From positions 1 to 22,588 of the IMG/VR virus record IMGVR_UViG_3300018041_000968: a stretch of DNA of 22,588 nt, one strand, 5' to 3'. Under the pieces are notes generated by a model that saw only the letters and a program-made list of their open reading frames with translations, searched no databases and was not told where the DNA came from. Shown here piece after piece: positions 1,924 to 9,943 of this stretch (within the stretch, counting starts at the first letter, position 1; each line of letters begins with the position of its first letter). The position numbers and the translations under genes were made by a program. Source of the stretch: a virus.

Positions 1924-3555
1924 TTACCTTGCGATCTTTCCTCTAGCTTCTTCCCATTGATTTATTTGATTTCTTAGATTATAAAGCTCTCGGTGAGCAT
2001 CTTGAAAAGAAAATATTTCTGTATCCTTAACTGATCTTACATGACTTTCATTATAATAATATTCTGGATCTGAGCTAGACCTTCTGAATCCAAAAGTCAA
2101 ATCTTTCAAGATTTTTCTCCATAAGAACCCACCCTTCATTTCCGGTTTATGTAAAACATAATCGAACAGATAATCAACCTTCTGTGTCGGTATTAGATTT
2201 TCTGGTAAGCTCTTGCTAGGAATCTTGATATCTAAAGGACTGTGCCAAGTCTCGCTATAATCTTTTAATTCAATTTCATTGATCTTATTTTCCCAAATCT
2301 TAGCGGTAGAATCCCAACTATATTTAGCCAAAGACTTTTTTCTTTGCTTCTCGCCCTGCTCTTTAAGGCAAACATTATCCTTGTTGGTAATGTAGCAAAG
2401 TAAATTTACGAGCGCTTCATTATCTGGAATCGCCCTATTGCATCCAGTTTCACATTCTATACTTAGAGTTAGTGGATCAATTCCCCACGCCCCAATGCTG
2501 TCGATAATGGATTCCATAGCAGAATAGCGAACAGAGACAACTGGAATACCACAGTTTGCCGCTTCGAGTTGCGGCATACCAAACCCTTCGCTATTTGCAT
2601 ACTGAACATATAGATCAAAAATATTGTATATCTTTGCCAGCTCTTCTTCGTCAATAGGATTATTGACACCAACCAAATGATTATTGAACGACCGGCACTT
2701 ATTGCAAAACTTCATAGAGTTTTGGAATGTCTCTACAGATATATTATTGCAAGATCTGCACTTATATGTCATGGTAACACGGCCAGACAATCCATACTGC
2801 TGAATAAGTCCGGGAATATCCCAGCCAGAATCTGGATAGTATGTGTGACAATGCAAAAACAGGTTATTATTTTTAGTGGTATCTAGAGTTTTTCTAAAAC
2901 ATTTAAACAAGTCTGGATAAAGTTTTCTTCTTTGGTTTCTCATGACCGTACCAATAATGGTGACATCTTTAGAAATACCGAAAGATTCTTTGTGAGCGTC
3001 TTTATCTTCTACAGGCTTAAAGTGATGACTAGCAGACGGAGGAGCTATATCGACAAAGTTTAATTCTTCGCACTGAGAAAGAAGCACATCTCTACCAAAC
3101 TCACTATAGCTAAACACAGAGTCCGCAGAAGCGTATGTGTTCATCCATTGATCATTCTGTGGAAAGGCGTCAACAGTAGGCATAATCGCCCAGTGAAAAA
3201 ACTTTCTAAATGGCGAACGTTGTTCAAACTCACACATCCACCAGTCACGAATATCCATAACAAAATCTGGCTTAAAATCTAAACAAGCCTGATTAAATAT
3301 CATGTCTCCAAATTGTAAAGTTGGACTATTTTGGTATTTCTGATAAGTGTCGTCGCTTTTAAGAGGTTTATTTGCGTAAGCTTTCCAAGGTCTTTGATTA
3401 TTTTTTAGACTTTCAACATCTGCAAAACAACTAATTTCAGCAACTTCTATTCCTTCAACATCATTAAGTCTAGATAATACCTCTTTGGTATAAACAGAAT
3501 AGCCAGTCGGAAGCCAAGAGGCTTCTGATACGAATAGCACTCTCTTATTTCTCAT
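1924..3555 (-). CDS. GT4-family glycosyltransferase with an inserted zinc ribbon
   Basis: A 543-residue GT-B type glycosyltransferase. The N-terminal domain starts KRVLFVSEASWLPTGYS, and the C-terminal domain carries the EX7E motif E323-GFGMPQL-E331 followed by EAANCGIPVVSV. Between the start of the donor domain and this motif lie two CxxC pairs (C266/C269 and C284/C287), a likely zinc-binding insert that ordinary GT4 enzymes lack. A further C-terminal extension of about 110 residues (from about 430) is not recognisable to me. GAAGGA stands 7 bases before the ATG at 3555. The gene follows the SSB-like gene by 4 bases and is the first of the run of three glycosyltransferases, so this cluster is co-transcribed with the replication genes. 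The acceptor is unknown. Confidence 0.87.
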   Translation of the reverse strand: MRNKRVLFVSEASWLPTGYSVYTKEVLSRLNDVEGIEVAEISCFADVESLKNNQRPWKAYANKPLKSDDTYQKYQNSPTLQFGDMIFNQACLDFKPDFVMDIRDWWMCEFEQRSPFRKFFHWAIMPTVDAFPQNDQWMNTYASADSVFSYSEFGRDVLLSQCEELNFVDIAPPSASHHFKPVEDKDAHKESFGISKDVTIIGTVMRNQRRKLYPDLFKCFRKTLDTTKNNNLFLHCHTYYPDSGWDIPGLIQQYGLSGRVTMTYKCRSCNNISVETFQNSMKFCNKCRSFNNHLVGVNNPIDEEELAKIYNIFDLYVQYANSEGFGMPQLEAANCGIPVVSVRYSAMESIIDSIGAWGIDPLTLSIECETGCNRAIPDNEALVNLLCYITNKDNVCLKEQGEKQRKKSLAKYSWDSTAKIWENKINEIELKDYSETWHSPLDIKIPSKSLPENLIPTQKVDYLFDYVLHKPEMKGGFLWRKILKDLTFGFRRSSSDPEYYYNESHVRSVKDTEIFSFQDAHRELYNLRNQINQWEEARGKIAR

Positions 3556-3559
3556 TCAT

Positions 3560-3868
3560 TTATCCTTCGTTGAATATCTTAAAACTTTCTACTCTGAAAT
3601 AGGTCTCATCGTTTGGTCCTACGCCTTGTCTAGCCTCACACTCGACTAGAATTAAAGAATGTGGTTTTAAACGCTCCTTAATAGAGATGGCGGCAGTGTG
3701 CCAAGCTTCAAATAATAAAGAATGTACACTCCTGCTTTTTTTTCCAGATTTACTGGTTCTGAACGATTCAATTTCTAAAGCAAATTCTGCTACATCAATA
3801 TTATCACACTTATATACAGAAACAACACCGTCTTCTGGTAATTTTCCTAAAAAATAACAACTATTCAT
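3560..3868 (-). CDS. Probable SSB-like OB-fold single-stranded DNA-binding protein
   Basis: A 102-residue protein whose strand pattern resembles bacterial SSB: NSCYFLGKLPEDG at the start (compare MNKVILIGRLGKDP), AEFALEIESF, then LLFEAWHTAAISIKERLKPH in the place of SSB's HRVVVFGKLAEIA..YLKKG, then LILVECEARQ and YFRVESFKIF. The acidic, flexible C-terminal tail used by E. coli SSB to recruit partners is missing apart from a short NEG ending. The start is set at ATG 3868, because GAGGTG sits just upstream and matches the SSB N-terminus; a GTG at 3874 is the only in-frame alternative. Its place directly after the DnaE C-terminal gene (7-base gap) fits a role at the phage replication fork. The assignment rests on pattern similarity only. 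Confidence 0.55.
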   Translation of the reverse strand: MNSCYFLGKLPEDGVVSVYKCDNIDVAEFALEIESFRTSKSGKKSRSVHSLLFEAWHTAAISIKERLKPHSLILVECEARQGVGPNDETYFRVESFKIFNEG

Positions 3869-3871
3869 ATT

Positions 3872-3877
3872 CACCTC
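3872..3877 (-). promoter_or_regulatory. Ribosome binding site choosing the SSB-like start
   Basis: GAGGTG on the minus strand, with GAGG 5 bases before the ATG at 3868. It overlaps the TGA stop of the DnaE C-terminal gene, suggesting translational coupling, and favours ATG 3868 over the GTG at 3874. Confidence 0.65.
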
Positions 3878-5435
3878 AAATTTGTATTACTTTATTTACG
3901 ATTACTGAACCCTTATCTTTTTTGGAGGGTTCACACATTAGCATCACAGTATTTCCTTCAAGCAAGAAACTTTTATTCTTTTCATAAGTTTCTGGAAAAA
4001 CTGTAATAGAGTCAAGTTCTCCACTACTATCTTCAACACACATGAAAGCCATTTCTTGTCCCGGAGTCTTGCCCTTTTTCGTTCTGATAACACGAATTGA
4101 TGTTATCACGACCGCTAGATTGACTTTCTTTTTTATGATACCGTTAGCTACGTCGTTACAAAAATCTGTAGCTATTTGCGTATCATCAACTTTACTGCAA
4201 GTCAAAGCACAGCCCATAAACTTTGTTTCTTGATCTGCTATACTAGAAGCGTGATCGTCTAAATTATAGAATGGTTTGACCAATGACTGCATGATGTTTT
4301 CTACGCTTTCAATTCTTCTAGAATTAATTTTAGTGTTAGACATCATTACTTTTATCGCTTCAGGCAGGGTTCTCACTCGCAACGAAGGATCTTTTTGGTT
4401 GTCTACAATAGAGCTTTGCTCTCTAGCCGATAATTGTTTCCAACTATCAAATTCGTAAAGCATCTTCTGTCGGGTCTCTGTATTATTCTTTCCATTAAAA
4501 GCTCCTACAGAAATCAATGCGATTACTGCTCTTTTGTTTAGTTTTAGTTTATGAATAATATTGATAAGACAGTCTAACCAATTATATTCAGAAACATCGC
4601 CTAGTTCTTCTATCTTCTCGCACTCTTTTTGACCAACACCTTTAATGTGGCGCAAGCCAAAATATATTTGTCTCTTTGGTTCATCTATTTGAAAATTTGT
4701 GTAGAGCCTATTAAGTCTTGGTGGATATGTTTCTATACCTACAGACTTAGCATCCATAACAAGCTGCTTGATCTCAATCTCTGATTTAGGCTTTCTGTCA
4801 GATCTGTTGAGGGAGCTTTGGTAGAATCTCAAAATTCTATGAGTCTTACAGTAAGCGGACCAATAAGCATTAATCGCGTAAGCAACAGCATGTGACTTAT
4901 TGAAGGCGTATCTACTAGACTTTTCAATCCAAGAAAAAATTTCCTCTGCCGCCTTTTGACTTACGGTGCCCTGCTTTTTAGCCCCATCTACAAACTTCTG
5001 CTTGATCTCTTCCATTAGGTCGGCCTTCTTTTTACCGATAGCCTTTCTAAGATCGTCCGCTTCTTTAAGATTAAAGCCAGCAAGTCTTTGTGCAATCATC
5101 ATAGATTGCTCTTGATAAACCAATACCCCATAAGTTTCTTTAAGAATAGGCTCTAAAGATTCATGCAAATATTCTACAGGATAATCTGGATTACCTGCTT
5201 TTCTATATGCATAAATTTGAGTCATGCTCTTTTTGGTTTTCTCATCTTGTGCTTTGAGCGTTCCCGGTCTAATAAGAGATATTGTAGCAGCAAGTTCGCT
5301 AATGTTTCTTGGCTGAACTTCTTTAGCCCAATGCTTGCCAAGACTAGATTCAAGCTGAAACACGCCCTTTGTACGACCTTCGCAAATCAAATCCCAAACT
5401 TCTTCATCTTCAAAATTATTAATATCAAACGTCAT
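3876..5435 (-). CDS. dnaE: DNA polymerase III alpha subunit, C-terminal half (fingers to OB fold)
   Basis: 519 residues matching the second half of bacterial DnaE. It begins just before the conserved GVFQLES (24-30) and continues with TYGVLVYQEQ (101-110), RKAIGKKK (130-137), FNKSHAVAYA (178-187), a helix-hairpin-helix GLRHIKGVGQKECEKI (about 260-275) and a terminal OB-fold region (about 437-519). It supplies the fingers, which bind the incoming nucleotide, and the downstream DNA-binding parts. It has none of the three catalytic aspartates, which are all in the other gene at 6672-8285. The tau-binding domain that ends E. coli DnaE is absent, and I see no obvious clamp-binding motif. ATG 5435 shares ATGA with the stop of the HNH gene, with GAGA as ribosome binding site. 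The protein must work together with the N-terminal half. Confidence 0.93.
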   Translation of the reverse strand: MTFDINNFEDEEVWDLICEGRTKGVFQLESSLGKHWAKEVQPRNISELAATISLIRPGTLKAQDEKTKKSMTQIYAYRKAGNPDYPVEYLHESLEPILKETYGVLVYQEQSMMIAQRLAGFNLKEADDLRKAIGKKKADLMEEIKQKFVDGAKKQGTVSQKAAEEIFSWIEKSSRYAFNKSHAVAYAINAYWSAYCKTHRILRFYQSSLNRSDRKPKSEIEIKQLVMDAKSVGIETYPPRLNRLYTNFQIDEPKRQIYFGLRHIKGVGQKECEKIEELGDVSEYNWLDCLINIIHKLKLNKRAVIALISVGAFNGKNNTETRQKMLYEFDSWKQLSAREQSSIVDNQKDPSLRVRTLPEAIKVMMSNTKINSRRIESVENIMQSLVKPFYNLDDHASSIADQETKFMGCALTCSKVDDTQIATDFCNDVANGIIKKKVNLAVVITSIRVIRTKKGKTPGQEMAFMCVEDSSGELDSITVFPETYEKNKSFLLEGNTVMLMCEPSKKDKGSVIVNKVIQI

Positions 5436-5776
5436 TTTTGTCTCAAATAGTTAATTGCCTTTTGTAATACTTCAATATCATCATCAAATCTACCTAAAGC
5501 GCTGTTGCAGTTATTGCAAAGATAACCCCTGAACTCATCTGTTTCATGGTCGTGATCCAGAACCAGTTTTCTGTCAGTCCGCTCACAAATTGCGCAGGTG
5601 CCACATTCTGGCTTATGGTTTACTTTTCTCAACTTGTTTCTAATTTTAGCAAGTTTACTATTACACGCCTTACAGCTATTTTTACGTCCCGCATCTTTTG
5701 TTGAAAAGTGAGGAAAGTCTGTCTCAACCTTAGATTCTCCACATTTTATACATGTCTTATACGTAAGTATTTCCAT
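5432..5776 (-). CDS. Endonuclease VII-like HNH nuclease with extra N-terminal zinc ribbon
   Basis: A 114-residue protein of the recombination endonuclease VII family (T4 gp49-like). The core reads CAIC (C61/C64), LVLDHDHETDEFRGYLCNNCN (D74 H75 D76 H77, C87/C90, N91) and ALGRF, matching the zinc-and-metal-binding fold that cuts branched DNA or specific sites. Upstream is another pair of CxxC motifs (C9/C12 and C35/C38), which the classical protein does not have there. I chose ATG 5776 because AAAAGG lies 9 bases upstream; a TTG at 5794 would add six residues. It overlaps the exonuclease gene by 20 bases and shares ATGA with the DnaE C-terminal gene. It may resolve recombination or packaging branches, or be a homing-type nuclease related to the DnaE split. 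Confidence 0.85.
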   Translation of the reverse strand: MEILTYKTCIKCGESKVETDFPHFSTKDAGRKNSCKACNSKLAKIRNKLRKVNHKPECGTCAICERTDRKLVLDHDHETDEFRGYLCNNCNSALGRFDDDIEVLQKAINYLRQK

Positions 5777-6449
5777 CTGCAAAAGCCTTTTCAAATCTTG
5801 TCTTTTCGATTAATGTTCTTTGAAACTTCATAAACTTAATCATAATATTTGCGGTATCTTTTACATCTTGCAGAGCGTCATGAGCGTTATCTTTACTGGC
5901 TTGACTCATGCCAAAGTAATCACGCATGTAATCCATACCATAGCCTTTTACATCTTGATTATTCTCAAACCAACAATAGATATGCTGCATTACATCAATA
6001 GTAAAAATAGGATTAAAAATCCCCTGTCTTCCACGCTTAGAATCTACAGGGCCATATTGTTGACACATGCGCTCGACAATAGGCATATCATAACCATTGA
6101 TATTATAACCAGCAGCGATTGGAGCATAGTAGCTAGTCTTTTTGAAGTTATATTTATCACAAAATTGAGCAAACTTATTCCAGACGGTTTTAGGTAGTGG
6201 AGCTTTTGCTAGCGCGTCTCTCGTTTTTCTAGTAACCTTTAACGCCTCATCTTCTAACGGATCAACTCCAGCCTTAATAGCTTCTTCATCATCAATGATT
6301 GGTCTAATTTCACTGTTAAAAATGCCGCCCGGCTGAAGTTCGAGCTTTCTAGCATGAATTGCCACAGCAGCGATTTGGGTCGGTTGACACCTGTATGGGT
6401 CTCTGCCGCCGGTCTCAAAGTCGAAAACAATAATATCCCTATAATTCAT
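5757..6449 (-). CDS. DnaQ-like DEDDh 3'-5' exonuclease, probable proofreading subunit
   Basis: 230 residues with all DEDDh exonuclease motifs: Exo I FDFETGG (D10, E12), Exo II GYNINGYDMPIVE (D121) and Exo III NAHDALQDVKDT (H190, D195). Such enzymes remove mismatched 3' ends. In bacteria the epsilon subunit DnaQ binds the PHP domain of DnaE, and here the gene lies between the two DnaE halves. The PHP domain of this DnaE appears to have lost metal ligands, which makes proofreading in trans plausible. An alternative is a DexA-like phage exonuclease that degrades DNA. It starts 1 base after the preceding 74-residue gene, with GAG near the ATG as a modest ribosome binding site. Confidence 0.87.
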   Translation of the reverse strand: MNYRDIIVFDFETGGRDPYRCQPTQIAAVAIHARKLELQPGGIFNSEIRPIIDDEEAIKAGVDPLEDEALKVTRKTRDALAKAPLPKTVWNKFAQFCDKYNFKKTSYYAPIAAGYNINGYDMPIVERMCQQYGPVDSKRGRQGIFNPIFTIDVMQHIYCWFENNQDVKGYGMDYMRDYFGMSQASKDNAHDALQDVKDTANIMIKFMKFQRTLIEKTRFEKAFADGNTYV

Positions 6450-6450
6450 G

Positions 6451-6675
6451 TTATACTCTACCCTTTTTATTTTTTAGTTCAATAAATTTATTTACAGCAT
6501 CATCTATATTTTTAAATAAGTGATATTCGTTTTGTCTATCTGACCATACCTGATACTCGTTAGATCTAACGACTCTTCTGTAATAATTAGATAGATTACA
6601 AATAGAGACATCCATATATTCTATAGAGCATCCAGAAAATATTACCGATTTATACTCTTCTTTAGTTGCGTTCAT
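6451..6675 (-). CDS. Small protein of unknown function between DnaE-N and exonuclease
   Basis: A 74-residue protein I do not recognise. It is hydrophilic with several aromatic residues (YYRRVVRSNEYQVWSDR) and a probable helix at the end (NIDDAVNKFIELKNKKG); no cysteine clusters, signal peptide or membrane segment are seen. The start is ATG 6675, which shares ATGA with the stop of the DnaE N-terminal gene and has a perfect GGAGG 7 bases upstream. Its constant neighbours, a polymerase half and a proofreading exonuclease, make a small polymerase accessory subunit (comparable in position only to theta) a reasonable guess, but nothing in the sequence proves it. Confidence 0.75.
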   Translation of the reverse strand: MNATKEEYKSVIFSGCSIEYMDVSICNLSNYYRRVVRSNEYQVWSDRQNEYHLFKNIDDAVNKFIELKNKKGRV

Positions 6676-8285
6676 TCGCAAACCTCCATAATTTTACTTA
6701 ATAGGTCAATGCCCAAGATATCGAATTTAACATGCCCCTGAGATTCTAGGGCGACCATTTCAAACTGAACAATCTTCTTACCGCTTTTATCTGTGACCAT
6801 TGGGCAAATATCTTTCAGTTTGTGTTTTGAAATAATGACTCCTGCCGGATGCTTACCTTGGGACTTGTTTGTTCCCTCGATTTTGATCGCCTGCTCGAAT
6901 AGGTCAGACATAGGTCCAGATAATTTATCATCGTCGTCTAGATAGCACCATTTCTTCAGCTTGCTTGACTCATTGATTAGCGCCCATCTGATAATTGACC
7001 TATCTTCTTTATCCATCAGCTCAAGCTGGTCAGAAATTTGAGCTTCGTCAGGAATACAATCTGTAATCTCATTCATTTCGGAAAATGACACACTATCATT
7101 AATTCTCATTACTTCTTTTAGGGCGGATCTACCCTGAAGTCTACCATATGTTACCATCTGAGAAACATTATCGCTTCCGTATTTTTCTTTGATGTCATCA
7201 ATCACTTCATCTCTATGTTCTGCCGGAACATCAACATCAATATCGGGCAAGGATATATGATCTTCTGTATTTCTACCCTCGTTGTAAAACCTTTCAAAAA
7301 TTAGACCATGCTCAATAGGGTCAACCTCTGTAATTCCAAGCAGATAAGAAACCAGACATCCTGCGGCAGAACCACGTCCCGGACCAGCCAACCATCCACG
7401 CTTTTTAACACTGTTAACGATGTCTTGAACAATTAAGAAATATCCACTAAGTTGAGCCTTGAAGATAACTTCCAGTTCAGTCTTGACTCTTTCTAGATAT
7501 TCATTTTTATCTGCCTCAGTAGCAACCTTTTTCGCTGGTACAAGTTTAGATTTCCATCCATCTCTACATAGCTGCTTCAAGTACTCGTCTTCACTAAAAC
7601 CTTCTGGACACTCAAATGTTGGAAGCATAGGTTTACCCGTGACTTCATAATCTTCACACATATCACAAATCTTTTGTACAAGATCATGCTCTTTTTTAGA
7701 CTTTGTAGTTTGAGGAATGTGATAAGAAGAAGAAATAAAGTAATGTTTGTTTTCAAATTCTTCTTCCTTTGAAATTTTAGACATAATTTTTGGTAATGTT
7801 GTCTTCATTCCTGAGCACAATACTACACGATGGGCTTCTGCTTCGTCTTTAGACACATAAAGAACTTCTCGTTTTTTGTAATCGTATTTAAAAATAGAAG
7901 ACTTGTTTTTTACAATCTTATCCCAAGCCTTTGATATTGTATCACAGTTGGTAACGCATATAAGGTTTCCGCTTTTAGCGACAGTTAAAACATCAATAAT
8001 GTTGACAGACTCTTCGACGATTCCCACTATCTGCATTAACTCTATCCATCCCTGTTTATTTTTTGCAAACAAACAAAAATCTCCGTAATCGCATCCAATG
8101 ACTGGCTTAACGCCGTTTTGGACACATGCTGAGTGGAATTCGATAGCTCCAGATACGGTTTTATAATCAGCGATTCCGCAGGCTGGTATTTTTAGATGCG
8201 CGCATTTGGCGGCAAGTTTTTCTGGTTTACAAAAAGCTTTCAAAAGACTATAGTGAGTCTTGCAATTTAGCGGTATTAAATTCAT
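6672..8285 (-). CDS. dnaE: DNA polymerase III alpha subunit, N-terminal half (PHP and palm)
   Basis: 537 residues matching the first half of bacterial DnaE. A PHP-like domain comes first (about 1-200), but its first motif reads KTHYSLLKA where active PHP domains have HxHxxYSxxDG, so metal binding is probably lost. The palm follows: GPGRGSAAG (301-309), LPDIDVDVP with catalytic D350 and D352, GKHPAGVIIS, and KFDILG with the third catalytic D522. The protein ends 15 residues after D522, and the fingers are encoded by 3876-5435. The joined halves total about 1056 residues, close to a DnaE without its tau-binding tail, and almost nothing is missing at the break. I see no intein sequence. ATG 8285 was chosen over TTG 8288; its ribosome binding site is weak and it overlaps the GT47 gene by 38 bases. 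Confidence 0.94.
   Translation of the reverse strand: MNLIPLNCKTHYSLLKAFCKPEKLAAKCAHLKIPACGIADYKTVSGAIEFHSACVQNGVKPVIGCDYGDFCLFAKNKQGWIELMQIVGIVEESVNIIDVLTVAKSGNLICVTNCDTISKAWDKIVKNKSSIFKYDYKKREVLYVSKDEAEAHRVVLCSGMKTTLPKIMSKISKEEEFENKHYFISSSYHIPQTTKSKKEHDLVQKICDMCEDYEVTGKPMLPTFECPEGFSEDEYLKQLCRDGWKSKLVPAKKVATEADKNEYLERVKTELEVIFKAQLSGYFLIVQDIVNSVKKRGWLAGPGRGSAAGCLVSYLLGITEVDPIEHGLIFERFYNEGRNTEDHISLPDIDVDVPAEHRDEVIDDIKEKYGSDNVSQMVTYGRLQGRSALKEVMRINDSVSFSEMNEITDCIPDEAQISDQLELMDKEDRSIIRWALINESSKLKKWCYLDDDDKLSGPMSDLFEQAIKIEGTNKSQGKHPAGVIISKHKLKDICPMVTDKSGKKIVQFEMVALESQGHVKFDILGIDLLSKIMEVCE
6683..6687 (-). promoter_or_regulatory. GGAGG ribosome binding site inside the end of DnaE-N
   Basis: A perfect GGAGG lies in the last codons of the DnaE N-terminal gene, 7 bases before ATG 6675. 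It selects that start over an in-frame TTG at 6681 and couples translation of the 74-residue protein to the polymerase half. Confidence 0.8.
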
Positions 8286-9108
8286 CAATTTTAGACTTCA
8301 AAATTAGTGACAAATGTTTAGGGTCCAATACTGTCATATTATATCTTGCTAGAGACATAAATACAGCTTTATTCTTAGGATTATGTAAAAAATTTAACGT
8401 CTGGTTGATAGTATGATCTAAAAATTCCCATCTACCAGTAAAAAATGGAGCGTTCAAGTAGTACCAAAACTTAGGTAGCCTTTCTAACACCGGGAAGCAT
8501 CCCATTTTTAGCGCCTCAAAAAACCGGAAAGTCTCCTCGCTAGTCGCTCCAGTTGGGCAAAGACACAGCTTTGAGTTAGATAACAACTCAAGATACTCTT
8601 TACCTTTTAACCCTCTGGCGAATCCGTCCGTATAAACTACTTTATATTTAAAGCTATGTCCAGAACTTTCTAGAAATTTGTCTAAACACTTCTTGAATTT
8701 ATCTCTGGTTCCGGTGTGTGGTATTTGCCCAATGAAAACAAAATCATATTCTCTTTCTAGAATCGTTTTTATATTTATTGATTCGTCATCATCTAAAAAT
8801 GTACCAATAGGCATCGGAAAAACTTTAGGACTTTCTACAGGATGGCCCCACATATCTAGTTCTGCATAATTGTGAAAAACGTAATGCACCCTTGGATCAT
8901 GAAGGTCTTCTGGCGGCAAATGAACTTCTCTAGATAGTGAAAAAATGATATTTTTCTTATCGTCGTTAGGAATATCGAGTGGTCCCAAGTCGTACTTAAC
9001 AACCACTCTGTATGAGTCGTCTAGCATGTCGGCCAAACATTTTGCTACATCTATAGAAAATCTGTTACCTTTATCAAAGTCTAATTTTAAGTCTATTAAT
9101 TCACACAT
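8248..9108 (-). CDS. Exostosin-type (GT47-like) glycosyltransferase
   Basis: 286 residues with the C-terminal signature of the exostosin family: LCLCPTGATSEETFRFFEAL (181-200) followed by KMGCFPVL. In known members this region, containing S/D..RF.EAL..GC.PV, binds the nucleotide sugar. The first half is less conserved, with IPHTGTRDKF (about 129-138) at the domain junction. There is no membrane anchor, so it should act in the cytoplasm. It is unrelated in family to the three GT4 genes at the left end, although all four belong to the same transcription unit. It starts 1 base after the GIY-YIG gene, with a weak ribosome binding site. The substrate is unknown. Confidence 0.82.
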   Translation of the reverse strand: MCELIDLKLDFDKGNRFSIDVAKCLADMLDDSYRVVVKYDLGPLDIPNDDKKNIIFSLSREVHLPPEDLHDPRVHYVFHNYAELDMWGHPVESPKVFPMPIGTFLDDDESINIKTILEREYDFVFIGQIPHTGTRDKFKKCLDKFLESSGHSFKYKVVYTDGFARGLKGKEYLELLSNSKLCLCPTGATSEETFRFFEALKMGCFPVLERLPKFWYYLNAPFFTGRWEFLDHTINQTLNFLHNPKNKAVFMSLARYNMTVLDPKHLSLILKSKIDEFNTAKLQDSL

Positions 9109-9109
9109 C

Positions 9110-9943
9110 TCAATTTTCTACAATATGTTTTAGGTCTTGAATAATTTCATTATTTAAAGCAGGTTCATAGGCAAAAATATAAAACGCTTCATACTGGTGC
9201 AGCTTCGACTTAGGAAACTCTATCCAAGAGACTAAATCTTTTGATTTAATTTTATGATGTTTATACATTCTTACTTTAAGGTTGTTAGCCTTGCCAACAT
9301 ATAAAATCTCTGCCCCGTCCCAGCAAAAATAAACGGCTGGAATGTCCAGATCATCGTCTTTAGATATTTCTGAACATGTTTTTTCTGGCGCGGGAGGATT
9401 AGGCATGTTATGTTTTTGACAAATCTTTTTTTGGCTTTCTAGCTTCAATAGCTCTATCATTTTTCTTTCAACATACATCTCTTCTTGGATTTGGGCAAGA
9501 GCGTCTTCTTTATATTTTATTATATTAGAATCAATAGAATCTAATATCTTATCTAAGGCTCCCACTAAATCTTTTCCAACCTCATACACCTTTTCTATTT
9601 GACTAAAATCGTGATAACTAATATTGGTTTTAGGTGATACTGCTCTTTTTGCATCGGCGGCAGTAGCATTGGTGGATCTAATCAGTCTCGCCATATTAGA
9701 CATCTGTGAAACCACTTTATTCACTTCTTCTGCCGACATAATGTGGTGATCAGAATACTGGGGATTCACATATTTCCAGCTAGGTGCATTTTTTTCTAAA
9801 AAGTTGTATACGGCGTCTGGATCTCGATTCATTTCAGCGGCCATATTTATTGGTGTTTTTATATGAGCGTTCTCAAGTATGAACGCTCTTTCACCTCTAG
9901 ATAGTCTTCCCTGCTTCTTGGTTTCGTTTCTATTATTATTCAT
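9110..9943 (-). CDS. Helix-turn-helix / GIY-YIG nuclease fusion protein
   Basis: 277 residues. The N-terminus (about 10-50) is a predicted helix-turn-helix of the pattern GxLSxxExxFxxENxxxxT. A long, probably helical linker follows (about 70-175). The C-terminus is a GIY-YIG nuclease: VYF (204-206), ILYVGKANNL (213-222), the catalytic-type R225, H229/H230, E252 in YEAFYI and the ALNN ending (262-265). These are the residues used by UvrC, homing enzymes and Slx1-type nucleases. It could be a homing endonuclease with its own DNA-recognition domain or a branch-specific repair nuclease. The N-terminal domain aligns without gaps with the protein at 17492-17833. Its ATG lies 1 base after an upstream stop-sharing junction, and its end abuts the GT47 gene. 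Confidence 0.83.
   Translation of the reverse strand: MNNNRNETKKQGRLSRGERAFILENAHIKTPINMAAEMNRDPDAVYNFLEKNAPSWKYVNPQYSDHHIMSAEEVNKVVSQMSNMARLIRSTNATAADAKRAVSPKTNISYHDFSQIEKVYEVGKDLVGALDKILDSIDSNIIKYKEDALAQIQEEMYVERKMIELLKLESQKKICQKHNMPNPPAPEKTCSEISKDDDLDIPAVYFCWDGAEILYVGKANNLKVRMYKHHKIKSKDLVSWIEFPKSKLHQYEAFYIFAYEPALNNEIIQDLKHIVEN

Follow-up and report, generated by a model that had tools for sequence, protein, structure and literature searches.

Palm and fingers of a phage DNA polymerase III alpha subunit encoded by two separate genes

Almost every bacterial chromosome is replicated by a DNA polymerase of the C family, and these enzymes are, to our knowledge, otherwise made as one chain or as pieces spliced into one. 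A virus record (IMGVR_UViG_3300018041_000968) departs from this pattern. In the window, by which we mean the whole stretch of DNA analysed here, a 22.6 kb fragment of that record, the palm and the fingers of a DnaE-like polymerase lie in two genes, DnaE-N and DnaE-C (N and C below), with other genes between them. The question is whether these halves are rejoined at the RNA or protein level, are the remains of a broken gene, or work as two chains. Sequence comparisons strongly favour the last reading, under which the phage replicase would be a two-chain Pol III alpha subunit, held together non-covalently and co-expressed with a DnaQ-like exonuclease. Such a stable natural division would mean that palm and fingers can be separate chains, would offer a ready tool for tests of palm-fingers cooperation, and would mark a large uncultured phage group with a replicase plan of its own.

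The break at the palm/fingers border

The genes of the locus lie on the minus strand, in the order N, p76, EXO, HNH, C, SSB-like (Table 1). N starts with the ATG at 8285, with a TTG one codon upstream, and is 537–538 aa long; C encodes 519 aa and its start overlaps the HNH stop. N matches the Pfam models PHP and DNA_pol3_alpha (E 1e-72) and covers the whole palm/thumb model, while C matches DNA_pol3_finger (E 3e-43), HHH_6 (E 5e-12) and, weakly, an OB model, and has no tau-binding C-terminal domain. An AlphaFold2 model of C alone (mean pLDDT 80.7, pTM 0.56) found its best structural matches in Pol III alpha (4IQJ and 3E0D, E 1e-21 to 1e-19).

Table 1. Features of the split polymerase locus in the window
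Feature	Coordinates	Strand	Basis or remark
DnaE-N (degenerate PHP, palm and thumb)	6672..8285	-	PF02811, PF07733; GPGRGS, PDIDVD and KFD motifs
p76, small conserved protein	6451..6675	-	adjoins N in loci of the window's subclade
EXO, DnaQ/epsilon-like DEDDh 3'-5' exonuclease	5757..6449	-	RNase_T, phrog_192 (DNA polymerase exonuclease subunit)
HNH / Endonuclease VII-type free-standing endonuclease, between EXO and C	5432..5794	-	PF02945, E 2e-20
DnaE-C (fingers, HhH and OB of Pol III alpha)	3876..5435	-	PF17657, PF14579, weak PF01336
SSB-like OB protein, downstream of C	3560..3874	-	weak TIGR00621, E 0.06

A sequence-only reading of this locus had placed the end of N 15 residues after the third catalytic Asp and the start of C about 23 residues before GVFQLES, and the gene read-out confirmed both: N closes with KFD-ILGIDLLSKIMEVCE, its last residue 15 past that Asp, and 23 residues of C precede GVFQLES. 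That reading had also held that only a short linker is lost relative to E. coli DnaE, that the catalytic aspartates are all in one protein and the fingers all in the other, and that FNKSH is intact in C. Alignment to E. coli K-12 DnaE agrees, with N ending at residue 570 and C starting at about 583, so that only some 12 linker residues are missing and the break falls on the palm/fingers border. By the same alignment and the Pfam matches, the three catalytic aspartates (D401, D403 and D555) and GPGRGS belong to N and the fingers to C, where FNKSH runs uninterrupted at about residues 178–182. Among the features that define a C-family DNA polymerase, the carboxylates with GPGRGS and the fingers with HhH are present, and the single continuous polypeptide is not.

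Conservation, gene order and other polymerases

Relatives were gathered by scanning IMG/VR with N, with C, with an N alignment and then with a distant homologue, together with one GTDB genome scan. The 190 loci in which both halves were complete, some of them fetched twice, reduce to 117 distinct N/C pairs, with identities between pairs down to 35% for N and 34% for C. Every pair is encoded on one strand in the order N-exonuclease-C and none is fused; the only fused homologues met were cellular DnaEs and three genes of distant phages (L357, L358 and L360). In E. coli numbering, D401, D403, D555, K553, R362 and S364 are identical in all 117 N proteins, as are the fingers residues R709, K714 and K715 in all 117 C proteins. 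Identities of N and C are correlated (r=0.95). For the 41 pairs with dS < 1.5, median dN/dS is 0.039 in N and 0.046 in C, which indicates strong purifying selection on each half.

PHP metal-ligand positions are kept in a sister clade (L114, 926-2806) and lost in the window's clade (window, 6672-8285). A C-G-C-x-F element is conserved at the start of C in the sister clade (L114 and L256–L354) and absent from the window's clade; it may serve in docking or metal binding at the newly created terminus.

EXO lies between N and C in all 117 pairs. Its DEDDh residues (D10, E12, D121, H190 and D195) are aligned and conserved, with gaps in 3–5 sequences. With start codons assigned by script, the distance from the EXO stop to the C start lies between -11 and +25 bases in 88 of the 117 loci (exactly -4 in 26 and -8 in 32), and SD-like sites occur in 44 of 117, against a 9% background; this spacing is probably a sign of translational coupling. 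The position of the SSB-like gene is also conserved in relatives. In contrast, p76 is limited to the window's subclade and absent from L251, L253 and L114. Its AF2 model (pLDDT 82) gave no significant match in the PDB, on which ground we rejected assignment to a known fold, and its sequence matches only weakly to viral proteins of unknown function.

Since the window is only a fragment, the search for a second dnaE across a genome rests on its relatives. Long contigs (52–233 kb) carry one palm and one fingers region each; G016, G017 and G023 have an interrupted palm match, and no C was seen in G007, whose contig stops short of it. No family B polymerase (PF00136) and no family A polymerase was found in 13 long contigs by searches that did detect their positive controls. 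No bacterial beta clamp (PF02767) was found in these contigs either, and a search for a T4-type clamp left its controls without a match as well. The split DnaE is the only replicative polymerase detected in the long contigs of the clade; since each of these could be incomplete, a further polymerase may be encoded beyond their ends.

Splicing, decay or separate chains

Cyanobacterial DnaE is split at FNKSH through a split intein, and the halves described here might be rejoined by protein trans-splicing in the same manner, an idea to which we give virtually no credence. True split inteins do occur in the lineage, in the C gene at FNK/SHA of three members. The intein Pfam models, however, which detect Hint and Intein_splicing domains in intein-bearing relatives, match neither half in the window nor those of L114, in keeping with the earlier observation that neither end carries an intein-like tail. 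In the pairs examined, N ends within about 30 residues of the last Asp, C starts some 20–60 before GVFQLES, and no intein-like tail was present at the break, which sits in a poorly conserved linker rather than at a conserved motif. Joining at the RNA level by an intron, in cis or trans, is likewise very improbable. In L359, which is only distantly related, Rfam does detect a group I intron, and an ORF of LAGLIDADG type interrupts N in several others, but at a different place from the N/C break; the gap in the window is filled by the coding genes EXO and p76, abutting or overlapping both ends. No group I or II intron was found by Rfam in window positions 3000-9500, a scan of limited sensitivity, since the interruption in L303 also gave no match.

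A dnaE broken by an endonuclease and now decaying, or an assembly artefact, with the working polymerase elsewhere, is a third alternative; decaying copies beside a full-length dnaE elsewhere in the genome were one outcome that the sequence-only reading had set against its own proposal, intein HMM hits at either end being the other. The HNH gene between the halves of the window and a relative with a frameshifted N would fit it. The HNH gene, however, is an optional insertion, found in only about a dozen relatives, and most relatives have none and keep the same break, so we reject HNH insertion as the cause of the split; as a group, the split members do not show the mobile endonuclease at the break that marks a HEN-fractured gene. 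The 117 pairs, from many samples, retain break, gene order and the checked catalytic residues at dN/dS near 0.04, which argues against decay, and neither a second nor a full-length dnaE was found in 24 long related contigs (52–233 kb). This explanation can therefore be given very little weight. A further alternative is a three-part assembly in which EXO, with p76 where present, bridges alpha-N and alpha-C, the core being an obligate alphaN-epsilon-alphaC. The invariable place of EXO between the halves and the overlap or abutment of its stop with the start of C in most loci speak for such a bridge, which nevertheless seems rather unlikely: gene order alone does not establish contact, p76 is not universal, and EXO may bind only N, because epsilon of E. 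coli binds the PHP domain.

Two chains that assemble without splicing remain the preferred reading. N would supply PHP, the palm with all catalytic aspartates and the dNTP-phosphate loop, and the thumb; C would supply fingers, HhH and OB; and the active site would form only when C docks to N, using the palm-fingers contact that other DnaEs make within a single chain. Proofreading would fall to the DnaQ-like enzyme whose gene lies between the two. What the comparisons show is conservation and gene order; docking is the most likely mechanism, and polymerase activity and translational coupling are inferred along with it. Against two working chains we count the pTM of the C model, the beta clamp that was not found and the missing tau-binding domain, the last two bearing on how the enzyme would be made processive. 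A broader scenario, which we offer tentatively, has one ancient fission leading to an obligate alphaN-epsilon-alphaC as sole replicase of an uncultured clade with contigs of up to 233 kb, EXO serving as scaffold or co-translational partner.

Selfish elements have repeatedly entered the gene at other sites, and the old break stays free of them. The split inteins at FNK/SHA lie in L054 (10931-13787), L093 (6191-9023) and L221 (3530-6443), IntN of L054 being identified by HMM and the other two read directly. Their halves are separated by a free-standing nuclease gene, of DUF559 type in L054. As this intein adds to the palm/fingers break, DnaE spans three genes in such members, one junction presumably spliced and the palm/fingers junction apparently not. 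L049 (6138-7106) carries a cis intein with an HNH nuclease in the C gene after SLIRPG. The LAGLIDADG-type ORF (about 3396-4247), probably an intron, falls just before P-DIDIDIP in L303, L304, L307, L309, L311 and L312. Outside dnaE, a UvsX-like recombinase gene of 700 aa (L102, 11423-13525) resembles terminase and helicase families at its N-terminus, which suggests an intein. Several frameshifts or stops break N in L330 (3222-5113), in a 195 kb contig, reflecting either a pseudogene or an assembly error.

Known split enzymes and the origin of the break

The cyanobacterial DnaE shares with the present one its two genes, but here there are no IntN or IntC tails, the break lies between palm and fingers, and FNKSH is inside C. 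The E. coli Pol III core (DnaE and DnaQ) resembles it in domain content, catalytic residues and a separate DEDDh exonuclease, whereas E. coli DnaE is one chain with a tau-binding C-terminal domain, in place of two chains without it.

Of the reported systems the nearest comes from group 2.2 jumbo phages, whose split minimal Pol III alpha consists of two standalone proteins predicted to reconstitute the enzyme (Iyer et al. 2021, PMC7824862). There too the C-family catalytic core comes as two phage proteins, but the break parts the NTP-binding from the Mg2+/template-binding portion, the two genes lie far apart, the remaining Pol III domains are missing and a family B polymerase accompanies the split one (PMC7824862). 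Here the break follows the last Asp, all aspartates stay with GPGRGS in N, PHP, HhH and OB are kept, the genes cluster with EXO, and PolB was not found in the 13 long contigs. The PHROG families phrog_13169/7513 and phrog_12219 break just before PDIDVD and resemble the jumbo type.

Phage enzymes in two pieces that work unspliced are known from Aeromonas phage 25, whose split T4-like gp43A/43B co-purify and are active, and from Aeh1, whose split NrdA (NrdA-a/b) is fully functional (PMC2988022). These precedents count in favour of a two-chain polymerase here. Free-standing HEN genes lie nearby there as in the window. Those cases concern a family B polymerase or a reductase and are sporadic, tied to mobile endonucleases or spacers, whereas the present split is of the C family, old and clade-wide, with HNH not its cause. 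The two-piece polymerase precedents thus differ in polymerase family or in where the break falls, and mention of this arrangement elsewhere in the literature is possible.

One tree combined 38 diverse members of the split group and 18 fused DnaEs from phages and cells; a second covered the palm-to-fingers region, with one further fused relative added. The split members share one branch in each (SH-aLRT 100, and 100/100 for the palm-to-fingers tree); as far as sampled, this is an old split, fixed throughout its clade. Its probable origin is fission of the gene at the flexible linker between palm and fingers, perhaps together with insertion of the exonuclease gene there. A junction-spanning query of 239 residues, compared with 50,697 annotated phage records, was covered to at least 80% in one place in 1250 of the 1286 matching records, the other 36 being counted only. 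All 60 sampled rows were single-piece; 59 span the junction and the last is a C-side-only match ending a short record.

Several candidate relatives were rejected. The break in Bacillus phage Jayan precedes DIDTD; in Bacteroides phage DAC19 the neighbour of the EXO homologue is a terminase-like protein, not DnaE-C; and a 148 kb relative matches T4 and Rhodothermus RM378 only in NrdA/NrdB and one glycosyltransferase. Contig C141 of a Lokiarchaeota MAG, considered as the fused ancestor, forms a long branch and is not sister to the split clade. The Lokiarchaeota MAG JABXKB01 (L114, L370 and L371) includes two split-DnaE phage contigs and a third phage-like contig in which EXO lies beside a fused, PHP-less DnaE; this may be either a binning error or a hint of the host.
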